Positions 8,549 to 30,468 of a DNA stretch of 64,000 nucleotides are shown one piece after another; position 1 is the stretch's first letter; the number at the start of each line of letters is the position of its first letter. A program made the translations under genes and the position numbers. The stretch comes from Nakamurella endophytica (GTDB lineage Bacteria > Actinomycetota > Actinomycetes > Mycobacteriales > Nakamurellaceae), in contig NZ_BMNA01000002.1 of assembly GCF_014646215.1 (NCBI RefSeq), forward strand, positions 240,864-304,863, written 5' to 3'. The notes under the pieces were generated by a model. That model made no database searches. It saw only the letters and a list, made by a program, of their open reading frames with translations, and was not told the origin of the DNA.

Positions 8549-9001
8549 ATGACGTCGATGTCCGTGTGGGCCAGGACGGCGGTCGTCGCGGCGGCCGGCA
8601 GTACGGCATTGATCCTCGGCGCCGGAGTCTCGTCGGCTGCGACGCCGGGTGCGCAGGATGTGCGTCCGTCCGCCGCCACGGCGGTCGCCGCACCCGTCGC
8701 GGTCCCCGCTGCGGCATCGACGACACCGTCGGCCAGGGGGACCGCGGCGCAGAGCCCGACCATGCCGATCGCGCCGTTCCGCAACGCGCTGTTCGTCGCG
8801 ACGTGCCCGAACGGTCTGGTGCCGGTGCACGACAGCATCACCGCCGTCGGCGAGGACATCCACATCGACGAGGTCGACTACCCGGGTGACTCGATCAGCA
8901 TCGTCGGATCCACGGCGTACGTGCACTTGACCGACATCGGCATCCACACCCATCACGCGTCGTTCTTCACCGGGTGCACCGCCGCGCCGTCCACGGACTG
9001 A
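8549..9001 (+). CDS. small secreted protein of unknown function
   Basis: A 150-residue exported protein. The ATG at 8549 has the strong site GAAGAAGGAGG upstream. The signal peptide spans about residues 1-30 (hydrophobic core V-V-A-A-A-G-S-T-A-L-I-L-G-A-G, cleavage near S-S-A-A). An Ala/Thr/Pro-rich linker follows, and then a compact C-terminal domain of about 75 residues with two cysteines (V-A-T-C-P and F-T-G-C-T) that could form a disulphide. A histidine-rich end (H-T-H-H-A-S) might bind metal. No family recognised. A reading frame upstream to 8300 is open but lacks a signal at its start. Confidence 0.65.
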   Translation: MTSMSVWARTAVVAAAGSTALILGAGVSSAATPGAQDVRPSAATAVAAPVAVPAAASTTPSARGTAAQSPTMPIAPFRNALFVATCPNGLVPVHDSITAVGEDIHIDEVDYPGDSISIVGSTAYVHLTDIGIHTHHASFFTGCTAAPSTD

Positions 9002-9020
9002 CCCCGGGGCCGGCTGCTCG

Positions 9021-10055
9021 CGGCTCAACGCCTGCCCCACCAGCGGGGTGGTCAGCGGGACGAGGTCGGTCGGCGTGACGGTGTTCGCGAGCACGACGAC
9101 GCCCACCGTGGCAGATGGGACCAGGAACGCCTGTGACTGGAAGCCGGCGGTGGCACCGTTCTCGGTCGCGAACGGCTGCGGGACCGAGCCCGCCGCCGGG
9201 TCCAACCGACAGGCCGGGCCCACTGTCTGCGGCGTGCTCGAGCAGTCCTTCGGATCCGTCTGCTGGCACCGCACCCGGGCGATGCCCACAGCTGGACGGT
9301 GCGGACCAGTGGAGGGTCGACAGCGCCGTCCGCGGCCACCGGAGAGCCGAGATGTGCGGCCGTCCAGACGGCCATGACGGCCATGTCGGCCGCATCGGAG
9401 ACCAGGCCGCCGGCGGCCGCCAGGGCGTTGGTCTTCGACCACTGCGGCGTGGCCCGTGGCGATCCGCCGTCGACCAGGTGGCCGGTGGCCATCTCCTGTC
9501 CCGGCACCTCCACCGCGGTCGCCGGCATCGGCAGGCCGGACAGCACGCGACTGCAGCGCCGCCCTGTAGGGCGGAGCCGCCGTGCCCGGGTCGACCAGGT
9601 CGGCCAGCACCGTGCCCAGGACGCCGAAACCGGAGTACAGCCAGTCGGTACCGGCTGGGCGGTGCAAACTTCTGTACCGGATCCGACAGGGCCACCGTGC
9701 CCAGCGCGACCAACGACGCCAGCAGGTCGGCAGTCAAGGTCCTGGTGAGGGAACCGATCTCGAACCGGGTCTGCGCCGTCACCGGCTGGTGGATGGTCGA
9801 GTCGGCAACACCCGGAGACGGAGAAGTCGCAGTGCGGAGCTCCGTCCGCGCCGGGGGTCACGACGGCGACGGCGGCGCCGACGACGCCGAGCTGGGCGAC
9901 CACCGAGTTCAGGAGGGACTGTGCGGATCCGGTGGCAGCGGACGGTGGGTGGAGCCGCTGCCGGATGCGGCGCCGCACGCGGCAGCCAGCACGGCCAGCA
10001 CCGCGAACGCGCCGATCGGGATCTCGCCGCCCGTCGGGCCGGTCTTCCGGGCGAC
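9021..10055 (-). pseudogene. beta-lactamase-like serine hydrolase lipoprotein, multiply frameshifted
   Basis: Pieces of one protein occur in order in the three minus-strand frames. They are: a lipoprotein signal ending L-A-A-A-C (near 9975); A-Q-L-G-V-V-G-A-A-V-A-V; F-E-I-G-S-L-T-R-T-L-T-A-D-L-L-A; D-W-L-Y-S-G-F-G-V-L-G; A-A-A-G-G-L-V-S-D-A-A-D-M; and a C-terminal V-P-S-A-T-V-G-V-V-V-L-A-N. This is the class C beta-lactamase/serine hydrolase fold order. At least four frameshifts are needed, no start codon is seen, and the S-x-x-K catalytic motif reads S-L-T-R. It is dead. A complete protein of the same superfamily is encoded at 19624-21414. Confidence 0.75.
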
Positions 10056-14022: not shown

Positions 14023-15570
14023 GTGCGTGGACGTCCGTCGCCCGGCCTTGTCGCGCTGGCCGTCACGGTCCTGCTCCTCTCCGGCTGCACCTCGACCGGT
14101 GCCGCCGGGCCCGCGGGCACGACGAGCGCCGGAACGGCGACCAGCGCAGGCGGCTCGGCCAGCGCGGCGACCGCGACACCGGCCGGCACCGCCGCCGGCG
14201 GCACCGCAGCGGGAACGTCCGGCGACACAGCCTCGACCGGCAGCAGCGGGACACCATCGACCGGCAGCGCAACCGCGACCCGCAGCCCGGCACCCGCCAC
14301 GACGGCGGCCTCGACCGGGGATCTGCAGAACACCGCCGTGACCGCCGGTCCCGCCGAGGCCAACCGGGTCGTGGAAACGGCTATCAAGGACGTCGAGCGC
14401 TACTGGACGGCGGAGTACCCCCGCCTGTCCGGCGGCAAGGCCTTCCAACCCGTCCGCGGTGGCTACCACCCGTACACCAGGACGTCGCCGCCGCCGGCGT
14501 GCGGCCGGGAGCCGGCGCAGTACCAACCGAATGCCTTCTACTGCCCGGACGGCGACTTCATCGCCTGGGACTCACAGGTGCTCGTCCCGGAGCTGCTGTC
14601 GGACTTCGGGCCGCTCCTGGTCGGTGTCGTCATCGCGCACGAGTACGGCCACGCCGTCCAGAACCGCCTCGGCCTGTCCCGGCAGCCGACGATCGTCCTG
14701 GAACAGCAGGCGGACTGCTTCGCCGGCGCATGGGTCGGCAACGTCGAGAGCGGGGCCTCGACCGCCTTCGGCACGGTGACGCCGCAACAGCTGGACACGA
14801 CACTGGCCGGCCTACTCCAGCTGCGCGACCAGCCGGGAACCGCCGCCCAGGAGCCGCAGGCGCACGGCAACGCATTCGACCGCATCCGCGCCTTCCAGGA
14901 CGGCGTCGACCGTGGACCGCGGACCTGCGCCGCGTACCGGACCAACAACCTCCCGGTGACCGAGGTCCCGTTCGGTACCCAGCAGGAGGCGGCCACCGGT
15001 GGGGACCTGCCCTCGTTCCAGGACACCGTCACCGTCCTCGACGAGTCCCTGGAGTCCTACTGGAGCCGGACCTACCCGGAAGTCGACCCCGGGCAGTCCT
15101 GGAAGGCGTTGCCGGTCCGGCCGTTCGACCCGGCGAGTCCGCCGGCGTGCCAGGGACGGGTTCAGCCCGACCCGGGCGCCGCCGAGACCGCCTTCTACTG
15201 CGTGTCGGGCGACTACGCGGCCTTCGACGCCGTCCGCCTGGGGCCGGCGCTGTACCAACGCATCGGCGACAACGCCGTGGGGACGCTGCTCGGCGGCCTG
15301 TTCGCGCAGGCCGTGCAGGTCCGGCGCGGACAGCCGACGACGGGACGAGCCGGACAACTGGAGATCGACTGCCTGACGGGCAGCTGGACCAACAGCCTGC
15401 TCGCAGGCAGCGCGGCGGACGACATCCGGCTCTCGCCCGGTGATCTCGACGAGGCGGTCGCGGCGCTGCTGGCCTTTAACCGCACCGAGGACACCGGCGG
15501 CGTCAGCGGCTTCGACCGCATCGCCGCCTACCGCACGGGGGTGCTGCAGGGCCTGCCCGGGTGCAGCTGA
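14023..15570 (+). CDS. neutral zinc metallopeptidase lipoprotein with a duplicated, inactive second domain
   Basis: A 515-residue exported lipoprotein. The GTG at 14023 has GAGGGAG upstream; the lipobox L-S-G-C ends at Cys22, and a Thr/Ser/Ala/Gly linker runs to about residue 100. Domain 1 (about 105-310) has H-E-Y-G-H at 206-210 and E-Q-Q-A-D-C-F-A-G, the YpfJ-type neutral zinc metallopeptidase marks. Domain 2 (about 325-510) repeats the layout (E-S-Y-W-S-R-T-Y-P, Y-C-V-S-G-D-Y-A-A-F-D, E-I-D-C-L-T-G-S-W), but the HEYGH position reads L-F-A-Q-A. Only the first domain can be catalytic. The 270 nt before the gene are an extreme GC tract with short repeats and no gene. Confidence 0.85.
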   Translation: MRGRPSPGLVALAVTVLLLSGCTSTGAAGPAGTTSAGTATSAGGSASAATATPAGTAAGGTAAGTSGDTASTGSSGTPSTGSATATRSPAPATTAASTGDLQNTAVTAGPAEANRVVETAIKDVERYWTAEYPRLSGGKAFQPVRGGYHPYTRTSPPPACGREPAQYQPNAFYCPDGDFIAWDSQVLVPELLSDFGPLLVGVVIAHEYGHAVQNRLGLSRQPTIVLEQQADCFAGAWVGNVESGASTAFGTVTPQQLDTTLAGLLQLRDQPGTAAQEPQAHGNAFDRIRAFQDGVDRGPRTCAAYRTNNLPVTEVPFGTQQEAATGGDLPSFQDTVTVLDESLESYWSRTYPEVDPGQSWKALPVRPFDPASPPACQGRVQPDPGAAETAFYCVSGDYAAFDAVRLGPALYQRIGDNAVGTLLGGLFAQAVQVRRGQPTTGRAGQLEIDCLTGSWTNSLLAGSAADDIRLSPGDLDEAVAALLAFNRTEDTGGVSGFDRIAAYRTGVLQGLPGCS

Positions 15571-22649: not shown

Positions 22650-24104
22650 GTGTCAGAGCGCACCGCGCCGCCGACCAGTTCCCGGGTCGAGGACGTCGCT
22701 GCCGACCGGGCATGCTCGCCGGGTCGTTTCGTGGATCTGCTGCCACGTCCCCTGCCCCGCCGCCAACTGTCCTGGGCCAATCCCGTCGTGCTGTGGAAGT
22801 CCCGGCGGCAGCTCGTGCCCTGGTGGCTCGATGGCGTCGACCGGCGACGGTCCCGCATCCTGGCGGGATCGTCACCCGCGGACTTCGACGTGGATCTGCA
22901 GCTCGGGGACCACTCCTTCGTCGTCCTCGGCGATCCCGGCGAGGGCGACCGGTCCCAGTACGCGGTCATGTCTGCGCTCGCGACCTTCGCCGCGGACACC
23001 ACCTTCGGCGTGCTCTGCGGCGACCTGCAGTACCCGGCCGGAGACGTCAACGACTTCGTCGACCTGTTCTACCGGCCCTTCGACAGTTACCCCGGCGCGT
23101 TGTACGCCGTCCCGGGCAATCACGACTGGTACGACGGTCTGACGGGTTTCCTGCACCACCTCTGCGGCCGCCCCGCACCGCAGTTCGACCGTGCCCGCTT
23201 CGTCGCGGAAGGTGGTCCGGCGCTGCGCGACCAACCGTCCCAGCAGCAGCCGGTCGCCCAGCGGACGCCGTACTTCCGGGTGCGGACCCGTCCTCTGACG
23301 CTGGTCTGCATCGAGTCCGGCATCCACAACAGGGTCGACGAGGAACAGGGTCGATGGCTGCTCCGGGTGTCGCGCGAACCCGGACCGAAGGTGCTCATCA
23401 CGGGTGGCGCGCCGCTGATCGCCAACGGTCGACGCGAGCAGTGCCGGATCAGCGGGGCACCCGAAGGGTACGGCGACGTGCACCAGGTCGTCGTCGAACC
23501 GCGACACGAGTACGTGGCGGCGATCGGCGGCAACACCCACAACTACCAGCGCTACCCCGTTCGGACAGCGGGCCGGACGATCCAGTTCGTGGTGGCAGGT
23601 GGTGGCGGCGCCTTCCTGCACGCGACACACACCGTAGGCCGGGTGGAACCCGCGCAGGCGGACGGAGTGAACGAGGAACGCTTCCGCTGCTTCCCGCTCC
23701 GCCGCGACTCGCTCGCCGCCTTCTCCAGGGTGCTGGCACATCGCCTGCGCATTCTCAGCCGGGGCCGGCTACGGCCCTTGTCCACCGATCAGGCTGCCCA
23801 TGCACTGGCACGGCGTCACGGCGTCGCACCGCTCGCCTCGCGCCCCGTCGGACCGGACCGCAGAGGGCCGCTGACCGGCCTCGCCGCGTACATCGTCGGA
23901 CATCTCGGCGGCCGGGCCACCCAGCGCCTCCTGGCGCCGGTCATCGCCTGGCGCGACCCGCCGTTCTTCAAGAACTTCCTGCGCATCGACGTGAACGGCG
24001 AACGGTTGCGCTGTCGTTGTTACGGCGTGACCGGCTGCCGGGAGTACGACGACGTGCCGATGGTGGAGGACGAGTGGGTGATGTCGTTGGCCCCCCGCGA
24101 CTGA
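22650..24104 (+). CDS. metallophosphoesterase
   Basis: A 484-residue calcineurin-like phosphoesterase. Metal-binding motifs appear in order: V-V-L-G-D-P-G-E-G-D, L-C-G-D-L-Q-Y-P-A-G-D, P-G-N-H-D-W-Y-D-G-L, and a distal G-G-N-T-H-N-Y-Q-R-Y. There is no signal peptide; amphipathic segments occur near the C-terminal third. The N-terminus is unusual (R-F-V-D-L-L-P-R-P-L-P-R-R). The GTG at 22650 follows GGAGAGGAGCGCC. The substrate may be a cyclic nucleotide, a phospholipid head group or a nucleotide, and cannot be told from the sequence. Confidence 0.85.
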   Translation: MSERTAPPTSSRVEDVAADRACSPGRFVDLLPRPLPRRQLSWANPVVLWKSRRQLVPWWLDGVDRRRSRILAGSSPADFDVDLQLGDHSFVVLGDPGEGDRSQYAVMSALATFAADTTFGVLCGDLQYPAGDVNDFVDLFYRPFDSYPGALYAVPGNHDWYDGLTGFLHHLCGRPAPQFDRARFVAEGGPALRDQPSQQQPVAQRTPYFRVRTRPLTLVCIESGIHNRVDEEQGRWLLRVSREPGPKVLITGGAPLIANGRREQCRISGAPEGYGDVHQVVVEPRHEYVAAIGGNTHNYQRYPVRTAGRTIQFVVAGGGGAFLHATHTVGRVEPAQADGVNEERFRCFPLRRDSLAAFSRVLAHRLRILSRGRLRPLSTDQAAHALARRHGVAPLASRPVGPDRRGPLTGLAAYIVGHLGGRATQRLLAPVIAWRDPPFFKNFLRIDVNGERLRCRCYGVTGCREYDDVPMVEDEWVMSLAPRD

Positions 24105-24375
24105 CGGTGCAGGAAGCGGCTGTGTGCCGGCCATCCGTCGCGGACGGTACACCGGCATCCTGCGGCCACCCGCCGGTGCGGGGCCGAGCGCCCGCGCGGT
24201 CGTCCGTGGCGCTTCCCGCCCGGACCACCACGCACGGTCACGTCCCGACGGTGCCGCCGGTGCGGGCGACCCGTCCGCCGACCGGTCCGACGCACCGTGT
24301 GTGACATGCTGCGACGCCCGTTGGCCCGACGGTCTGGACTCGGCCCGCCGTCAACACTCGGTGAAGTGGTTCGAT

Positions 24376-24381
24376 TACACT
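24376..24381 (+). promoter_or_regulatory. -10 box of the three-gene ThiF/c-di-GMP operon
   Basis: TACACT, 7 nt before the GTG at 24389, with no ribosome site between. A weak -35 candidate TCAACA lies at 24351-24356. This predicts a leaderless transcript covering the following three overlapping genes. Confidence 0.6.
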
Positions 24382-24388
24382 TGGTTGC

Positions 24389-25147
24389 GTGTTGCTCACA
24401 GTGTCCGCCGCACCGCCCGGGTCCGCGCCCGAGGCCGACGGCCCCACCGCGCCCGGCATCGTCGGGGAGTACTGCGAGGCAGGCAGCGGCCGCCGGGTCC
24501 TGGTCGCCCGACCGGGCGAACAGCCGGCGTTGTGGGCCGCGTACCTCGACGGCGCGCTGCGCAGCTACCGGAGCCACGGTGTCGAGTCCGTCATCGAGTA
24601 CCCGGCGGTTCGGGACGGCCGGTCGACGTCGCTGTTCGTCACCGCGGTCGAGCCCGACGGCCGCGTCGTGGCCGGCCTGCGCGCCCACGGACCGCTCGTC
24701 GCGCCGGACCAGGCCCACGCCGTGCGTGAGTGGGACGGGCGACCGGGGACCGCCGAGATCCGCGCCCAGATCGGTGACCGGCTCGCGGCCGGTGTCGTCG
24801 AGATCAAGGCCGTCTGGGTCGACGCGGACGCCGCCGGCCGGCTCGCGCTGACGGCGGCGATGGCGCGCGCCTTCGTGCACGTCATGGACGTCCTGCAGGT
24901 GCGGTATGCGCTCTGCACCGCCGCCCGCCACGCCGTCGGTCGCTGGCAGAGCAGCGGCGGCATCGTCAGCAGCACCGTGCCCGCCGTTCCCTACCCGGAC
25001 GAGCGGTACCGGACCGTCCTCATGTGGTGGGACCGGACCGCCGTCGCCGAGGTCGTCGCTGCGGCCGACCACGAGGCGTTGCTGCAGGAGTCGGACGATC
25101 TGTTCGGCCGGGTCCCGGCCGCGGGCTCCTTCCCCTCGGTGGCGTGA
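24389..25147 (+). CDS. GNAT-fold-like protein (autoinducer/N-acyl amino acid synthase-like)
   Basis: A 252-residue soluble protein, first gene of a three-gene operon. Its middle looks like a GNAT/LuxI-type acyltransferase: a strand G-L-R-A-H-G-P-L, a long insertion, then G-V-V-E-I-K-A-V-W-V, a helix L-A-L-T-A-A-M-A-R-A-F-V-H-V-M-D, and Y-A-L-C-T-A-A-R-H-A-V-G-R-W. This order recalls acyl-homoserine-lactone and N-acyl amino acid synthases but is not proof. From memory, the gene in this place in Mycobacterium is Rv1356c. The stop overlaps the next start by one base (TGATG). The GTG start is leaderless-type. Confidence 0.6.
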   Translation: MLLTVSAAPPGSAPEADGPTAPGIVGEYCEAGSGRRVLVARPGEQPALWAAYLDGALRSYRSHGVESVIEYPAVRDGRSTSLFVTAVEPDGRVVAGLRAHGPLVAPDQAHAVREWDGRPGTAEIRAQIGDRLAAGVVEIKAVWVDADAAGRLALTAAMARAFVHVMDVLQVRYALCTAARHAVGRWQSSGGIVSSTVPAVPYPDERYRTVLMWWDRTAVAEVVAAADHEALLQESDDLFGRVPAAGSFPSVA

Positions 25148-27396
25148 TGACGCTGCACCTGCTGTCCCTCGGTCGGCCGGACCTCGGTGACGACTTCCGA
25201 GCCGTGGTCCTGGACGAGTCCGACCCGGCCCAGGCCCGCCACCTCCGCCGGTTGCGCCGGCGCCGGGACGTCGTCGTCCTCGACCACCGGGAGGGCCTGC
25301 GCGCCGAGCTGGCGGACCTCCGGCCGGCACTGGACGCGGCCGCTCTGGCCGCACCCTTCCGCTGGGCCTGGTACCCGTGGCGCCGCACGCTGGTGTCCGT
25401 GCCGCAGCCCGACACATTCCGGCAGCTCCGGACCGACCGCAACCGCAACAAGATCACCCGCGCCGAGCAGGAGCGGTTCGCGCGGCTGCGGATCGGTGTC
25501 GTCGGGTTGAGCGTCGGCCACGCCATCGCCCACACGCTGGCCCTCGAGGGACTGTGCGGCAGCCTGCGACTGGCCGACCCGGACAGCATCGAGCTGTCCA
25601 ACCTCAATCGCATCCCCGCGTCGGTGGGCGACCTGGGCGTGAACAAGGCCGTCGTCGTCGCGCGGCGGATCGCCGACGTCGATCCCTACCTGCACACCGA
25701 GGTCTTCCTCGAGGGCCTGACCGAGTCCACCATGACCGGGTTCTTCGACGGGCTGGACCTGGTGATCGAGGAGTGCGACTCGCTGGACATGAAGCTCCGG
25801 GTGCGGGAGGAGGCCCGCCGACGCGGCCTCCCGGTGCTGATGGAGACCAGCGACCGCGGCCTGTTCGATGTCGAGCGCTTCGACCTGGAGCCCGACCGGC
25901 CGCTGTTCCACGGCCTGCTGGGCGACGTCTCGCCGGAGACGCTGCGCGGGTTGTCGACCCACGACAAGGCCCCGCACGTCATGCGGATCCTGGAGGCCGG
26001 CCAGCTGTCGGACCGGATGGCCGCGTCCATGGTCGAGATCGACCACACCGTGTCCACCTGGCCCCAGCTGGCCGGGGACGTGCAGCTGGGCGGGGCGACC
26101 GTGGCCGCGGCGGTGCGCCGCCTCGGGCGCGGCGAGTCGCTCCCGTCGGGGCGCATCCGCGTCGACCTCGAGCGCTCCCTGGACGGGCTGGGCGCGGCGG
26201 TCGCCGCGGGGCCGCCGGAGGGTGTCGCCGGCGCTGCGGGCGCTGCCGAGATCGCGGTCGCTGCGGCGGTCGACCTGACCGCCGAGGAGCCCGGCGAGGT
26301 CCAGGAGGCCGTGCTGCACGCAGTGCGGCTGGCGCCGTCCGGCGGCAACGTCCAACCCTGGTCGCTGGTGCCGACGGCCGACGGCGGTGTCGAGATCCAC
26401 CTGGCGGCGGACCGGACGTCCGGCCTGGACGTCGCCTTCCGGGGCAGTTACGTGGCCATCGGCGCCGCGGCGTTCAACGCGACCGTCGCCGCCGCCCGCC
26501 ACGGGCGCAAGGCCGTCGTCACCCCGTTCCCGGCGGGCCCGGAGTCCGGTTCGGTGGTCACCGTGTCGCTCGAAGCGGGCGCCGATCCCGAGCTCGCGGA
26601 GCTCTACCCTGCGATGGTGCGGCGCATCACCAACCGGCAGTACGGGCGCGTCCGCCCGCTCGCCCCCGAACTGGTGAGCGAGCTGCGGCGCCAGATGGCC
26701 GCGATGGGTGCCGGGGTGCACCTGGTGACCGACCGGGACCGGGTGGCGGCCGTGGCCGACGTGCTGGCGGCGTCGGACCGGGTCCGCTTCCTGGACCGGG
26801 TGCTGCACGGCGAGATGATGCACGAGATGCGGTGGCCCGGACCGGAACGCGCGTCCTGGGGCATCGACGTGGCAGCCTTGGGCATGGACGACGCGGACCT
26901 GGCCAAGCTCCGGGTCGCCGCGCGCACCGACGTCATGGCGCGCCTAGGTGACTGGGGAGAGGGCATCGGCGTGGCGCTGGGCGACAACACCCGCGACCGG
27001 GTCAACGCCAGCTCCGCGGTCGCGGTGGTCACCGTGGACGGCGACCGGCCTGCCGACTACGTGCGGGGCGGCATGGCGCTCGAGCAGCTGTGGATCACCG
27101 CCGAGCGGCACGGCCTGGCGGTGCACCCGGTCTCGCCCGTCTTCCTCTACGCCCGCAGCGACGCGGACCGGTCCGGGCTGTCGGCCACCTACGCCGACGA
27201 GCTGGCCCTGCTGAGCCGGCGTTTCGGCGACGCGGTGGGGCTGGCCCCGACCGACGTGCCGGTGCTGGTCGTGCGATTGAGCTCCGACGTGCCGCCGGCG
27301 CCCGTGCGCAGCCAGCGTTTCGACCGGGAGACCGTGTACGTCGGGCCACCGGCTCTCGCCGGAACCGGTGCGGCAGTGGACAGGCGGGACGCATGA
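25147..27396 (+). CDS. ThiF/E1-like adenylyltransferase fused to a nitroreductase (Rv1355c family)
   Basis: A 749-residue fusion. The N-terminal extension (1-110) is followed by a ThiF/MoeB/E1 domain (about 112-345) with the nucleotide loop G-V-V-G-L-S-V-G-H and D-P-D-S-I-E-L-S-N-L-N-R. A nitroreductase domain (about 375-740) begins A-V-R-L-A-P-S-G-G-N-V-Q-P-W. I see no obvious E1 catalytic cysteine. The protein matches the mycobacterial Rv1355c (moeY) family in order and length. It should activate a carboxylate with ATP and carry out a flavin reaction. It sits between the GNAT-like gene and the cyclic-di-GMP gene, overlapping both. Confidence 0.85.
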   Translation: MTLHLLSLGRPDLGDDFRAVVLDESDPAQARHLRRLRRRRDVVVLDHREGLRAELADLRPALDAAALAAPFRWAWYPWRRTLVSVPQPDTFRQLRTDRNRNKITRAEQERFARLRIGVVGLSVGHAIAHTLALEGLCGSLRLADPDSIELSNLNRIPASVGDLGVNKAVVVARRIADVDPYLHTEVFLEGLTESTMTGFFDGLDLVIEECDSLDMKLRVREEARRRGLPVLMETSDRGLFDVERFDLEPDRPLFHGLLGDVSPETLRGLSTHDKAPHVMRILEAGQLSDRMAASMVEIDHTVSTWPQLAGDVQLGGATVAAAVRRLGRGESLPSGRIRVDLERSLDGLGAAVAAGPPEGVAGAAGAAEIAVAAAVDLTAEEPGEVQEAVLHAVRLAPSGGNVQPWSLVPTADGGVEIHLAADRTSGLDVAFRGSYVAIGAAAFNATVAAARHGRKAVVTPFPAGPESGSVVTVSLEAGADPELAELYPAMVRRITNRQYGRVRPLAPELVSELRRQMAAMGAGVHLVTDRDRVAAVADVLAASDRVRFLDRVLHGEMMHEMRWPGPERASWGIDVAALGMDDADLAKLRVAARTDVMARLGDWGEGIGVALGDNTRDRVNASSAVAVVTVDGDRPADYVRGGMALEQLWITAERHGLAVHPVSPVFLYARSDADRSGLSATYADELALLSRRFGDAVGLAPTDVPVLVVRLSSDVPPAPVRSQRFDRETVYVGPPALAGTGAAVDRRDA

Positions 27397-29234
27397 CCGT
27401 GAAGCTGACCTTGGACGACCTGGTGACCTCCGTGGCGACGGACCTGATGGGGGTCACCGCGGCCACCCTGCACTCCGCGTCCGAGCGGTTGCTGCACCAG
27501 CTGGTCGACTACTTCGAGGTCGACCTGAGCTTCCTGCGCCGCAACGACCACGAGCGCGGGGCCACCATCCTGGTCGCCGAGTGGCCGCCCCGCGAGGACG
27601 TCCCCGCCGACGACCCGCTCGGCGTCATCTACTTCGCCGACGCCGATCCGACGTTCGCTGCGCTGGAGACGCTGTCGTCCGTGCTGCTGGTGCGCCCGGC
27701 GGAGGACAACGACCAGTACCAGGACCGTGTTCGGCAGGCATCGGGCATCCAGGCGGTGTCGCTGGCCACCGTGCCGCTGATGGACAAGGAGATCACCTCC
27801 GGTTCTCTGGGTTTCATCAAGTACGGCGACCGCGCCTGGGAGCCGGAGGAGATCAACGCGCTGCGCGCCGTCGCCGCGTTGCTCGCGCAGCTCCAGGCAC
27901 GCGTGGCCGCCGAGGAGCGCCTGCGCTACCTGGCCTACCACGACGAGCTGACCGGCCTGGCGACCCGCCGGGCCCTCACCGACCACCTGGCCGAGCGGTT
28001 GTCGTCGGGGGCGGGTCCGGTGCCGGTGATCTTCATCGACGTCGACCGGCTGAAGGCGTTGAACAGCTTCCTCGGGCACGCCGCCGGCGACCAGTTCCTG
28101 GCCACGCTGGCGCACCGGCTGAAGACCGCGTCCCCGGCCAACCACATGCTGGCCCGGCTGGGCGGCGACGAGTTCGTCGCCGTCATGGAACGTGCCGCGG
28201 ACGAGGCCGAAGCCAGCCGCTACGCCGACACGCTGCGCCGGGTGGCGAACGAGCCGGTGCAGGTGGGCGGCGAGGAGATCAGCCGAGCGATCAGCATCGG
28301 CCTGGCGCTCGGCGAGCCGGGCCAGGTCAACGTGTCCGAGCTGATGAACCAGGCCGACCAGGCGATGCTGCAGGCCAAGTCACGGGGCGGCAACGAGATC
28401 GCCGTCTTCACCGACGAGATGCGCCGGCAGAACGAGATCCGCACGGACATCGAGCTGCACCTTGTCACTGCGATCCGCAACGGGTCGCTGCTGCTGCACT
28501 ACCAGCCGGAAGTCGACATGTTCACCGGCGAGGTGACCGGTATCGAGGCTCTGGTGCGGTGGCCGCACCCCAATCTCGGGCTGCTGCCGCCCGCAGCCTT
28601 CATCGAGGTGATCGAGACCACCAACCTGGCCGGCGAACTCGGCCGCTGGGTGCTCGAGACCGGCTGCCGCCAGCTGCGGGAGTGGCATCGCCGGTACCCG
28701 AGGACCACTCCCCTGGGCCTGAGCGTCAACGTCACGCCGGCCGAGCTGATCACCCGGGACTTCGTCTCGACGGTCGCGCAGATCCTGCGGGACTCCGGCC
28801 TGGAGGGCCAGTACCTCACCCTGGAGATCACCGAGAAGGCCATCGTCCGGGACACCGAGCAGGCGCTGGACACGCTGCGCGGACTCAAGAACATCGGCGT
28901 CCGGGTCGCGATCGACGACTTCGGCACCGGCTACAGCTCTCTCGCGCAGCTCAAGTCGCTGCCGGTGGACGTGCTGAAGATCGACCGCGGCTTCGTCCGG
29001 GACCTCGGTGTGAGCGCCGACGACCTCGCGATCGTCCGCTCCATCGTCGGCCTGGCCGGCTCCTTCGGCCTGCGGATCGTCGCCGAAGGCGTCGAGACCA
29101 AGCTGGCCGCTGCCAGCCTGCTCGCCCTGGGCTGCACCCGGGCCCAGGGGTTCCTCTACGCCAAGCCGTGCGGCGCCGAGGAGCTGGGCGAGATCCTGGC
29201 CATGGGCGGGTTCGGCGGCAAGCGGATGTCCTGA
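27393..29234 (+). CDS. GAF-GGDEF-EAL cyclic-di-GMP enzyme (Rv1354c/DcpA-like)
   Basis: A 613-residue bifunctional protein. The GAF sensor domain spans about 20-165; the GGDEF domain about 180-345 has an intact R-L-G-G-D-E-F near 256; the EAL domain about 360-610 has E-A-L-V-R-W near 384 and D-D-F-G-T-G-Y-S-S. Both active sites look complete, so it may make and degrade cyclic-di-GMP depending on the GAF ligand, as reported for mycobacterial DcpA (Rv1354c in M. tuberculosis). No membrane segment. The start ATG overlaps the stop of the ThiF-nitroreductase gene (ATGA), linking its synthesis to the upstream enzymes. Confidence 0.92.
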   Translation: MTVKLTLDDLVTSVATDLMGVTAATLHSASERLLHQLVDYFEVDLSFLRRNDHERGATILVAEWPPREDVPADDPLGVIYFADADPTFAALETLSSVLLVRPAEDNDQYQDRVRQASGIQAVSLATVPLMDKEITSGSLGFIKYGDRAWEPEEINALRAVAALLAQLQARVAAEERLRYLAYHDELTGLATRRALTDHLAERLSSGAGPVPVIFIDVDRLKALNSFLGHAAGDQFLATLAHRLKTASPANHMLARLGGDEFVAVMERAADEAEASRYADTLRRVANEPVQVGGEEISRAISIGLALGEPGQVNVSELMNQADQAMLQAKSRGGNEIAVFTDEMRRQNEIRTDIELHLVTAIRNGSLLLHYQPEVDMFTGEVTGIEALVRWPHPNLGLLPPAAFIEVIETTNLAGELGRWVLETGCRQLREWHRRYPRTTPLGLSVNVTPAELITRDFVSTVAQILRDSGLEGQYLTLEITEKAIVRDTEQALDTLRGLKNIGVRVAIDDFGTGYSSLAQLKSLPVDVLKIDRGFVRDLGVSADDLAIVRSIVGLAGSFGLRIVAEGVETKLAAASLLALGCTRAQGFLYAKPCGAEELGEILAMGGFGGKRMS

Positions 29235-29309
29235 CACCGCACCGCTGCGTGCTGCAGCGGCGAGGACGGCAGCGTCCGGGACGCGGCCGAGGTCGGTGTC
29301 CCGAGGGTC

Positions 29310-29338
29310 TTGACGTTGCACTTGCTTTTTGCAAGTGT
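29310..29338 (+). promoter_or_regulatory. promoter with embedded operator for the VOC/HxlR operon
   Basis: TTGACG (29310-29315), 17-nt spacer, AAGTGT (29333-29338). Within it lies the perfect inverted repeat CACTTGC-TTTTT-GCAAGTG (29319-29337). The palindrome fills the spacer and -10, ideal for repression by the HxlR protein encoded two genes on. The AT-rich centre stands out in this GC-rich DNA. Confidence 0.75.
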
Positions 29339-29377
29339 CGTGGGGTCCGACCGACCCCGTCCTGAAGGGACTCCGCG

Positions 29378-29812
29378 ATGCCCGCCATGTTCGTCAACCT
29401 GCCGGTGACCGACCTCGACCGGGCCAAGGGCTTCTACACGGCCCTGGGCTTCACCATCAACCCGAAGTTCACCGACCACAACGCGGCCTGCGTGGTGGTC
29501 GAGGACGGCCACAGCTACTTCATGATCCTGGTGCGGGAGTTCTTCCAGACCTTCACCGAGCTGCCGCTGGGTGACCCGAAGGTCAACCCCTCGGTGGCCA
29601 CCGCGATCTTCCTGGACAGCCGCGACGAGGTGGACACCGCCGTCGCAGCGGGCCTGGCCGCCGGCGGCTCGGAGGCCCAGGCGCCGTCCGACTACGGGTT
29701 CATGTATCAGCGGCAGCTGACCGACCCCGACGGCAACATCCTCGAGTTCGGCTACATGGACCCGGTGGCCGCCGAGCAGGGGCCCGAGGCCTTCGCGAGC
29801 CAGCAGGCCTGA
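29378..29812 (+). CDS. VOC family (glyoxalase-like) protein
   Basis: A 144-residue VOC protein (M-F-V-N-L-P-V-T-D-L-D-R-A-K-G-F-Y-T-A-L-G-F, then Q-L-T-D-P-D-G-N-I-L-E-F-G-Y-M-D). This type is annotated as extradiol dioxygenase-like or lactoylglutathione lyase-like and is very common in actinobacteria. GAAGGGA lies upstream of the ATG. It is the first gene of a two-gene operon with the HxlR regulator, 14 nt apart. It probably binds or modifies a small molecule that is also sensed by the regulator. Confidence 0.88.
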   Translation: MPAMFVNLPVTDLDRAKGFYTALGFTINPKFTDHNAACVVVEDGHSYFMILVREFFQTFTELPLGDPKVNPSVATAIFLDSRDEVDTAVAAGLAAGGSEAQAPSDYGFMYQRQLTDPDGNILEFGYMDPVAAEQGPEAFASQQA

Positions 29813-29826
29813 GGCGGTCGACGCCG

Positions 29827-30468
29827 GTGGCCGCACGTGACTACGGCCAGTACAGCGGGATCACCCGCGGCCTGGAACTCGTGGGCGAGCGCTGGGCCCT
29901 GCTGATCGTCCGCGACCTTCTCGTCGGCCCGCGCCGCTACGGCGAGCTTGCTGCCGGACTCCCCCGCATCCCCAGCAACATCCTGGCGTCGCGGCTCAAG
30001 GAGCTGCAGGCGGCGGGCGTCATCCGCCGCCTGCCCCGGTCGCGGGTCATCGTGTACGAGCTGACGCCGTACGGCCGGGAGCTCGAGCCGGTCGTGCTCG
30101 CGCTCGGCGCCTGGGGGTTCAAGGCCCTGGGGGATGCCCGCGACGAGCAGGTCATCAGCCTGGAGTCGATGACCGTGGACCTGCGGACGGCGTTCCAGGC
30201 GGGGGTGGCCGCGACGCTGCCGCGCACCGCCTACGCGGCCCGCCTCGGTCCCGCGGAGCTGCTCATCCGGGTCGACGGCCCGACCCTCGACGTCACGCCG
30301 GGAGGAGGTCCGGCCGACCTGGTGTTCGCCGCGGGACCGGCGATCCACCGGGTGATCACCGGCGAGCTGCCGGCCGACCGGGCGATCGCGACGGGCGCCG
30401 TCGAGGTGCTCCACGGGCAGGGGGAGCTGCTCGGCCGGTTCGCCAGCACGTTCCACGTGGCGGCCTGA
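29827..30468 (+). CDS. HxlR-type winged-helix regulator with C-terminal SCP2-like domain
   Basis: A 213-residue protein. The N-terminal HxlR domain (about 5-100) shows L-E-L-V-G-E-R-W-A-L-L-I-V-R-D-L-L-V-G-P-R-R-Y, but lacks the early Cys of the redox-sensing members. The C-terminal part (about 110-210) resembles a sterol-carrier/SCP2 ligand pocket. The GTG start is 14 nt after the VOC stop, so the two are co-transcribed. The palindrome in the promoter suggests autoregulation with the SCP2-like domain as the sensor. A strong hairpin follows its stop. Confidence 0.87.
   Translation: MAARDYGQYSGITRGLELVGERWALLIVRDLLVGPRRYGELAAGLPRIPSNILASRLKELQAAGVIRRLPRSRVIVYELTPYGRELEPVVLALGAWGFKALGDARDEQVISLESMTVDLRTAFQAGVAATLPRTAYAARLGPAELLIRVDGPTLDVTPGGGPADLVFAAGPAIHRVITGELPADRAIATGAVEVLHGQGELLGRFASTFHVAA

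Follow-up and report, generated by a model that had tools for sequence, protein, structure and literature searches.

Oxazolone synthases and c-di-GMP enzymes

In December 2025, Rv1356c and Rv1355c of Mycobacterium tuberculosis (TrzA and TrzS) and their homologues were found to make N-acyl tryptazolones (PMC12856293). N-acylation of tryptophan from acyl-CoA was demonstrated for M. tuberculosis TrzA, and ATP-dependent cyclisation and O2-dependent desaturation of the acyl tryptophan were demonstrated for M. smegmatis TrzS. Acids and alcohols are reported to open the oxazolone ring. The same paper mentions neighbouring cyclic di-GMP (c-di-GMP) genes and regards the physiological role of oxazolones as a major unresolved question. 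We describe here a stretch of 64,000 nucleotides of Nakamurella endophytica (contig NZ_BMNA01000002.1, positions 240,864 to 304,863), termed the window, in which three consecutive genes, A, B and C, combine an oxazolone pair of TrzA-TrzS type with a c-di-GMP enzyme, likely as an oxazolone-to-c-di-GMP signalling module. The biosynthesis and the neighbouring c-di-GMP genes are already published; the consistency of the tie between oxazolone genes and c-di-GMP enzymes is new here.

The tyrazolone pathway has also been described (PMC10404671). TyzA-TyzC-TyzB (Rv2336-Rv2338c) and OxzA-OxzB of Pseudoalteromonas rubra resemble the window unit in that an acyltransferase, a ThiF cyclase and a flavin oxidase lead to acyl oxazolones. 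In contrast to the window, ThiF and oxidase are separate proteins in the Tyz system and the product is derived from tyrosine or phenylalanine. The term c-di-GMP has 0 occurrences in the available part of the Tyz/Oxz paper.

The trzA-trzS pair of M. tuberculosis is likewise situated beside rv1354c (PMC12856293). Rv1354c (MtbDGC) and MSDGC-1/DcpA share with protein C the order GAF-GGDEF-EAL and a similar length (623 amino acids) (PMC2994820, PMC8846402), and Rv1354c both synthesizes and degrades c-di-GMP in vitro (PMC2994820). For window C, this activity is predicted. DcpA and MSDGC-1 are taken here to be one protein. A precedent that works in a like manner is RpfR of Burkholderia (PMC8846402). 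This c-di-GMP phosphodiesterase binds BDSF, a fatty acid signal, through its PAS domain, and so provides a case in which the sensor domain of a c-di-GMP enzyme detects a signal of acyl type. RpfR is unlike C in its sensor (PAS rather than GAF), its synthase and its signal, and no homology is claimed. The synthase gene rpfF adjoins rpfR. No paper in which an oxazolone was tested on a c-di-GMP enzyme, or in which the linkage was surveyed, was found within one literature library.

The three genes and their products

The features of the unit are summarized in Table 1. Genes A and B overlap by 1 nucleotide (TGATG), and B and C by 4 nucleotides (ATGA); the coordinates, strand and overlaps given in a preliminary description of the window, made from the nucleotide sequence, are all correct. 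The candidate -10 element occupies the positions 8-13 nucleotides upstream of the GTG of A, and a consensus scan found no sigma-70 consensus promoter in 24050-29500; the leaderless-type promoter that the preliminary description has the three genes share is thus putative. No Rfam family reaches its gathering score in the window, and hence no known c-di-GMP riboswitch is located there.

Table 1. Features of the A-B-C unit, in window coordinates
Feature	Position	Strand	Description and basis
Gene A	24389..25147	+	252 amino acids, GTG start; predicted TrzA-like N-acyl amino acid synthase
Gene B	25147..27396	+	749 amino acids; TrzS-like fusion of ThiF cyclase and flavin-dependent oxidase; activity predicted
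Gene C	27393..29234	+	613 amino acids; GAF-GGDEF-EAL c-di-GMP enzyme (predicted activity)
TACACT	24376..24381	+	putative -10 element, leaderless transcript from the GTG of A; sequence reading
ThiF domain of B	25435..25842	+	residues 97-232; PF00899 4.5e-20
Flavin oxidase/nitroreductase-type part of B	26314..27141	+	residues 390-665; PF00881 8.6e-8; NF047509 5.2e-40, under family cut-off
GAF domain of C	27462..27890	+	residues 24-166, putative sensor; weak PF13185/PF01590; model and fold matches
GGDEF domain of C	27933..28394	+	residues 181-334, motif GGDEF at residue 257; PF00990 3.2e-36
EAL domain of C	28461..29168	+	residues 357-592, motif EAL at residue 385; PF00563 1.1e-70

Protein B scores 915.7 bits against the NCBIfam entry "Rv1355c family protein" (NF005901, cut-off 476) over residues 15-730. 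ThiF (PF00899) and flavin oxidase (PF00881) are both found above cut-off in its single chain, and the SNLNR motif occupies residues 151-155; the ThiF-nitroreductase fusion and the match to Rv1355c proposed in the preliminary description are thereby confirmed. D214 and R547 of B, matched by spacing rather than against the M. smegmatis TrzS sequence itself, correspond to D217 (cyclase) and R540 (desaturase) of M. smegmatis TrzS and are conserved in 81 of 81 aligned proteins. The A-B order, the ThiF-oxidase fusion, the Rv1355c-family score and these two equivalents are the features shared with TrzA-TrzS of M. tuberculosis, M. smegmatis and Rhodococcus jostii RHA1. Unlike these tested systems, the window is Nakamurella-type, a genus unnamed in the main text of PMC12856293, has a His in place of Gln651, and has a predicted product.

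Protein A has no match in Pfam, even at E values as high as 1, or in NCBIfam, and the PDB offers no useful sequence relative. It also fails to match the Pfam autoinducer synthase families, taken as a test for a LuxI-type acyl-homoserine lactone synthase, so that the likeness is one of fold only. The predicted structure (predicted local distance difference test, pLDDT, 92.1) matches FeeM, LasI and BjaI, with general GNAT enzymes ranking close behind. This suggests a GNAT/LuxI-type fold for A, as had been expected from its autoinducer-synthase-like appearance. By analogy with the chemistry known from relatives, A and B very probably make an N-acyl oxazolone. A would transfer the acyl group of acyl-CoA to an aromatic amino acid, which is tryptophan in the tested relatives; B would then close the oxazolone ring with ATP and desaturate it with flavin mononucleotide and O2, in the order known from M. 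smegmatis TrzS.

Protein C possesses the GAF, GGDEF and EAL domains in the order of Rv1354c, with intact GGDEF and EAL motifs. Its GAF domain is weak by Pfam (PF01590 23.0 bits, cut-off 22.4; PF13185 under its cut-off); the model of the domain is confident (pLDDT 91.5) and matches GAF folds. Pfam, motifs and model therefore agree with the first assignment of a GAF domain together with intact GGDEF and EAL sites. Among 86 C relatives adjoining TrzS, the GGDEF letters are intact in 83, and EAL is kept in 80 and replaced by ESL in six. We regard C as the counterpart of Rv1354c on the basis of its domain architecture, its place beside an Rv1355c-family gene and the published papers, rather than of the Rv1354c sequence. 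Occupation of the GAF domain would shift the balance of c-di-GMP synthesis and breakdown by C.

Conservation of the probable tie to c-di-GMP

Two sets of TrzS loci, overlapping in part, were compared. The 38 drawn loci carry full-length TrzS (33 from the order and five more from the phylum, with the window and partial TrzS matches excluded), while the named set consists of the 80 best among 105 loci and is hence biased toward relatives of the window. A adjoins B or is fused to it in 32 of the drawn loci, C is the direct same-strand neighbour of B in 30, and in 29 the three genes form one uninterrupted row. C lies next to A or B in 33 and anywhere in the fetched stretch in 34. The corresponding counts for the best 80 named loci are 51, 59, 47, 64 and 75; L066, scored among the five that lack C, shows a C fragment where its contig ends. 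The genes therefore mostly stay together, as the preliminary description held. Its joint-pathway idea was to fall if A was not GNAT-like or if the genes were separated in most genomes; since A is predicted to be of GNAT/LuxI type and the genes are mostly together, neither applies. A joint small-molecule and c-di-GMP unit is thus still the best interpretation, with the exception of the statement that no pathway had been assigned, the first two steps having been assigned biochemically in 2025 (PMC12856293).

In 29 Acidimicrobiia-type loci (L017, L045, L161-L165 and others), A and B form one frame of 958-1092 codons, the product of which is predicted to be a three-domain oxazolone synthase. Ten of the 13 positions invariant among A homologues are also invariant in the fused proteins. 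C is found upstream rather than downstream in three fused loci (L161, L163 and L164). As C remains beside A-B despite the fusion and the changed gene order, it has been kept with the pair while the arrangement changed. P0205 and P0209 have lengths similar to those of the fusions. L017, from an Acidimicrobiaceae genome, has two additional c-di-GMP genes: one with GGDEF (9001-9834) that overlaps C at its end and, ~5 kb on, one with EAL alone (14192-15019).

Co-occurrence was examined in 396 genomes drawn evenly from the phylum and in 249 genomes of the order, with TrzS counted over its cut-off and C by its GAF family. In the phylum draw, TrzS is present in 16 genomes and the GAF family of C in 18 (both 16, TrzS only 0, C only 2, neither 378). 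The order draw gives 31 and 38 (both 30, TrzS only 1, namely G426, C only 8, neither 210), and a separate search for A finds it in exactly the 31 of these 249 genomes that have TrzS. Fisher values for the co-occurrence of TrzS and C are 3e-30 and 1e-26, with shared ancestry ignored. The class of G118, with 66 genomes, has TrzS in three and C in five. The best 2, 4, 8, 8 and 11 candidates per genome were scored in the genome-wide searches, and weak extra copies may escape. Of the C-only genomes, G129 in the phylum draw has its C 157 nucleotides from a contig edge, so that a neighbour gene may be missing, and in G362 the contig that carries C is 4.6 kb long, the 1.1-1.5 kb on each side of C giving no match to A or B. 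The Nakamurella genome G469 has a close C relative (L166, 9260-11239) with a luciferase-like monooxygenase gene after it, and no TrzS or A; loss of the synthesis genes is possible in this genome.

Near-identical rows were removed before tree construction (119 to 91 for C, 119 to 101 for a second tree). In the tree of 91 C proteins, 11 rows unlinked to TrzS are nested among the linked ones, which needs three changes, and nine of them fall in one Mycobacterium clade. This placement fits linkage as the older state, in a tree that is unrooted, that obtained its linked rows via TrzS and that leaves out broader GGDEF-EAL relatives. The 15 fetched loci of unlinked C have no A, B, P450 or methyltransferase relative. 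The best identity of B to other Nakamurella rows in the second tree is 72%.

Other GGDEF genes are present at some loci without C. The searches for them used C as query instead of a GGDEF profile and may overlook distant ones. The drawn Nakamurella TrzS loci without a C match are L146, L155 and L149, the contig of the last ending 1.5 kb past TrzS. At L146, a divergent GGDEF gene lies ~0.6 kb from A, with a small frame that may intervene; it also matches GAF, below threshold. A 67%-identical homologue is situated ~5 kb from A at L155. This type of gene is found in two of 17 genomes of the genus (those of L146 and L155), and the genome of L149, 88% complete, is without it. TrzS-type matches occur in 13 plasmid records, of which 11 were examined (all except H3 and H13). 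In 6 of 6 records of Rhodococcus plasmids with TrzS, a GGDEF gene is followed by an opposite-strand A that overlaps its end and then by TrzS; these plasmids are closely related and count as one or two events. Their GGDEF protein, the N-terminus of which appears hydrophobic by eye, is found at E 1e-35 only in those six of 72,556 plasmid records. In the 249-genome draw this plasmid type has four places in three genomes, three of them beside A or a ThiF gene (L184, L185 and L207) and the fourth (L208) not. At L211, which has A without TrzS, a divergent PAS-GGDEF gene is separated by ~300 bp. The likeness of the GGDEF proteins at C-less loci to window C is mainly in the GGDEF domain. The host genome (4.94 Mb), the nearest protein relatives of which are from Nakamurella, has one TrzS match and 19 GGDEF matches, which gives an estimated chance of roughly 3% for a GGDEF gene within 3 kb of a random place.

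Incomplete TrzS matches (13 partial or weak, of which eight were fetched, L184-L191) served as a control. Two of the eight (L184 and L185, of one genus) directly adjoin a GGDEF gene; the other six have no adjoining one, L191 having one ~5.6 kb away. The GGDEF tie therefore belongs chiefly to the TrzS family. A occurs without full-length TrzS alongside at six loci of the order draw (L185, L207 and L209-L212; G590, with TrzS split over contigs, not counted), three of which (L185, L207 and L211) directly adjoin a GGDEF gene. L184, L185 and L207, all from one genus, are ThiF-only or A-only loci by a GGDEF gene with no flavin oxidase in the parts examined, and might make saturated products. On the Streptomyces plasmid of L198, a ThiF-family gene is followed directly by a GNAT-family gene, with no C match; this is possibly a further acyl amino acid cyclising pair. 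Comparison of the loci gives good support to a functional link between the unit and c-di-GMP.

The GAF ligand and the product

We infer the product in the Nakamurella host, the c-di-GMP turnover by window C and, above all, the ligand of its GAF domain. The simplest mechanism, which we suggest tentatively, has as ligand of the GAF domain either the oxazolone or the acyl amino acid from which it is made. The whole chain, from synthesis of an N-acyl oxazolone by A and B to a change in c-di-GMP when C responds through its GAF domain, is plausible at somewhat short of an even chance.

Several observations weigh against this proposal. The third tested TrzS residue, Gln651, corresponds by spacing to His660 in B (63 Q, 10 H and 8 R among 81 proteins). 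In 8 of 249 and 2 of 396 genomes, C is present and TrzS is not. With C as query, no GGDEF match was obtained at L026, L046, L061 and L132, on the mycobacterial plasmids L192-L194, or at three of the six A loci without TrzS. The first seven of these loci carry TrzS, and all of them except L026 also have a P450; at several other P450-bearing Mycobacterium loci, C is kilobases from B. Among PDB sequences, the one most clearly related to the GAF profile is 5w10 (Lcd1, which binds cyclic AMP, cAMP; E 1.6e-6), and the GAF domain of M. smegmatis DcpA is said in a review to bind GDP (PMC8846402). In L192, L193 and L194, TrzS is accompanied by divergent P450, TetR regulator and dienelactone hydrolase genes, with no A or C matches.

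Constraint on the GAF domain was considered as a sign of an oxazolone ligand and rejected. The premise was that, with oxazolone as ligand, the GAF domain of C proteins unlinked to trz genes could be under less constraint. In the unlinked Mycobacterium clade, the GAF/catalytic distance ratio is 2.07; the same ratio ranges from 0.46 to 3.44 (Nocardia 3.44) in ten linked or near groups and hence does not discriminate.

Alternatively, C may sense a nucleotide, GDP or a cyclic one, as an energy or starvation signal, with c-di-GMP controlling or paralleling oxazolone production. The coupling would then be real without C being an oxazolone receptor, and this is nearly as likely as the GAF domain reading the oxazolone. 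The reported GDP binding and the cAMP-binding relative Lcd1 point in this direction, as do the restoration of starvation survival in an M. smegmatis mutant by Rv1354c (PMC2994820) and the C family members at 15 fetched loci away from trz genes. However, GDP binding is reported for a single mycobacterial protein, and a nucleotide sensor alone leaves unexplained why GGDEF proteins sharing only GGDEF with C are situated beside A elsewhere.

Another possibility, somewhat below even and compatible with oxazolone sensing by C, is that the product is an acyl oxazolone of another amino acid or chain, perhaps modified further. The known systems vary in both (PMC12856293, PMC10404671), and a related P450 is found in 33, and a methyltransferase in 16, of 118 fetched TrzS loci (named and drawn, overlapping). 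The genes flanking the window unit (metallophosphatase, glyoxalase-type and HxlR-type) include no obvious tailoring enzyme, which does not favour modification here. The P450, of one family, is present at 26 of the best 80 named and 7 of the 38 drawn trz loci (L009, L010, L018, L037, L039, L068 and others), and the methyltransferase at 14 and 2, respectively; decorated oxazolones are possible in Mycobacterium, and neither word occurs in the main text of PMC12856293. Directly 3' of the unit, the window has a glyoxalase/bleomycin-resistance-type gene and then an HxlR-type regulator gene (29378-30468).

That A-B and C are neighbours through history only, with no functional tie, would suit a gene order common to close relatives, Fisher values that ignore ancestry and the several loci without C or with C kilobases away, but is improbable given that C stays beside the pair through fusion and order change, that its presence tracks TrzS across the phylum draw, and that other GGDEF genes are found at some C-less loci.

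Returning to the oxazolone as the ligand of C, a wider extension is less likely than not: oxazolones would be signals, and Actinomycetota would have several times, on chromosomes and plasmids, brought the genes for making them together with c-di-GMP enzymes of various kinds (GAF-GGDEF-EAL, two further families with GGDEF and one PAS-GGDEF) as receptors of an acyl-amino-acid autoinducer system. The ligand of the GAF domain in this family of c-di-GMP enzymes has been reported for one member only. If the module acts as proposed, oxazolones would gain a testable role, and acyl amino acid signalling would be extended to Actinomycetota.

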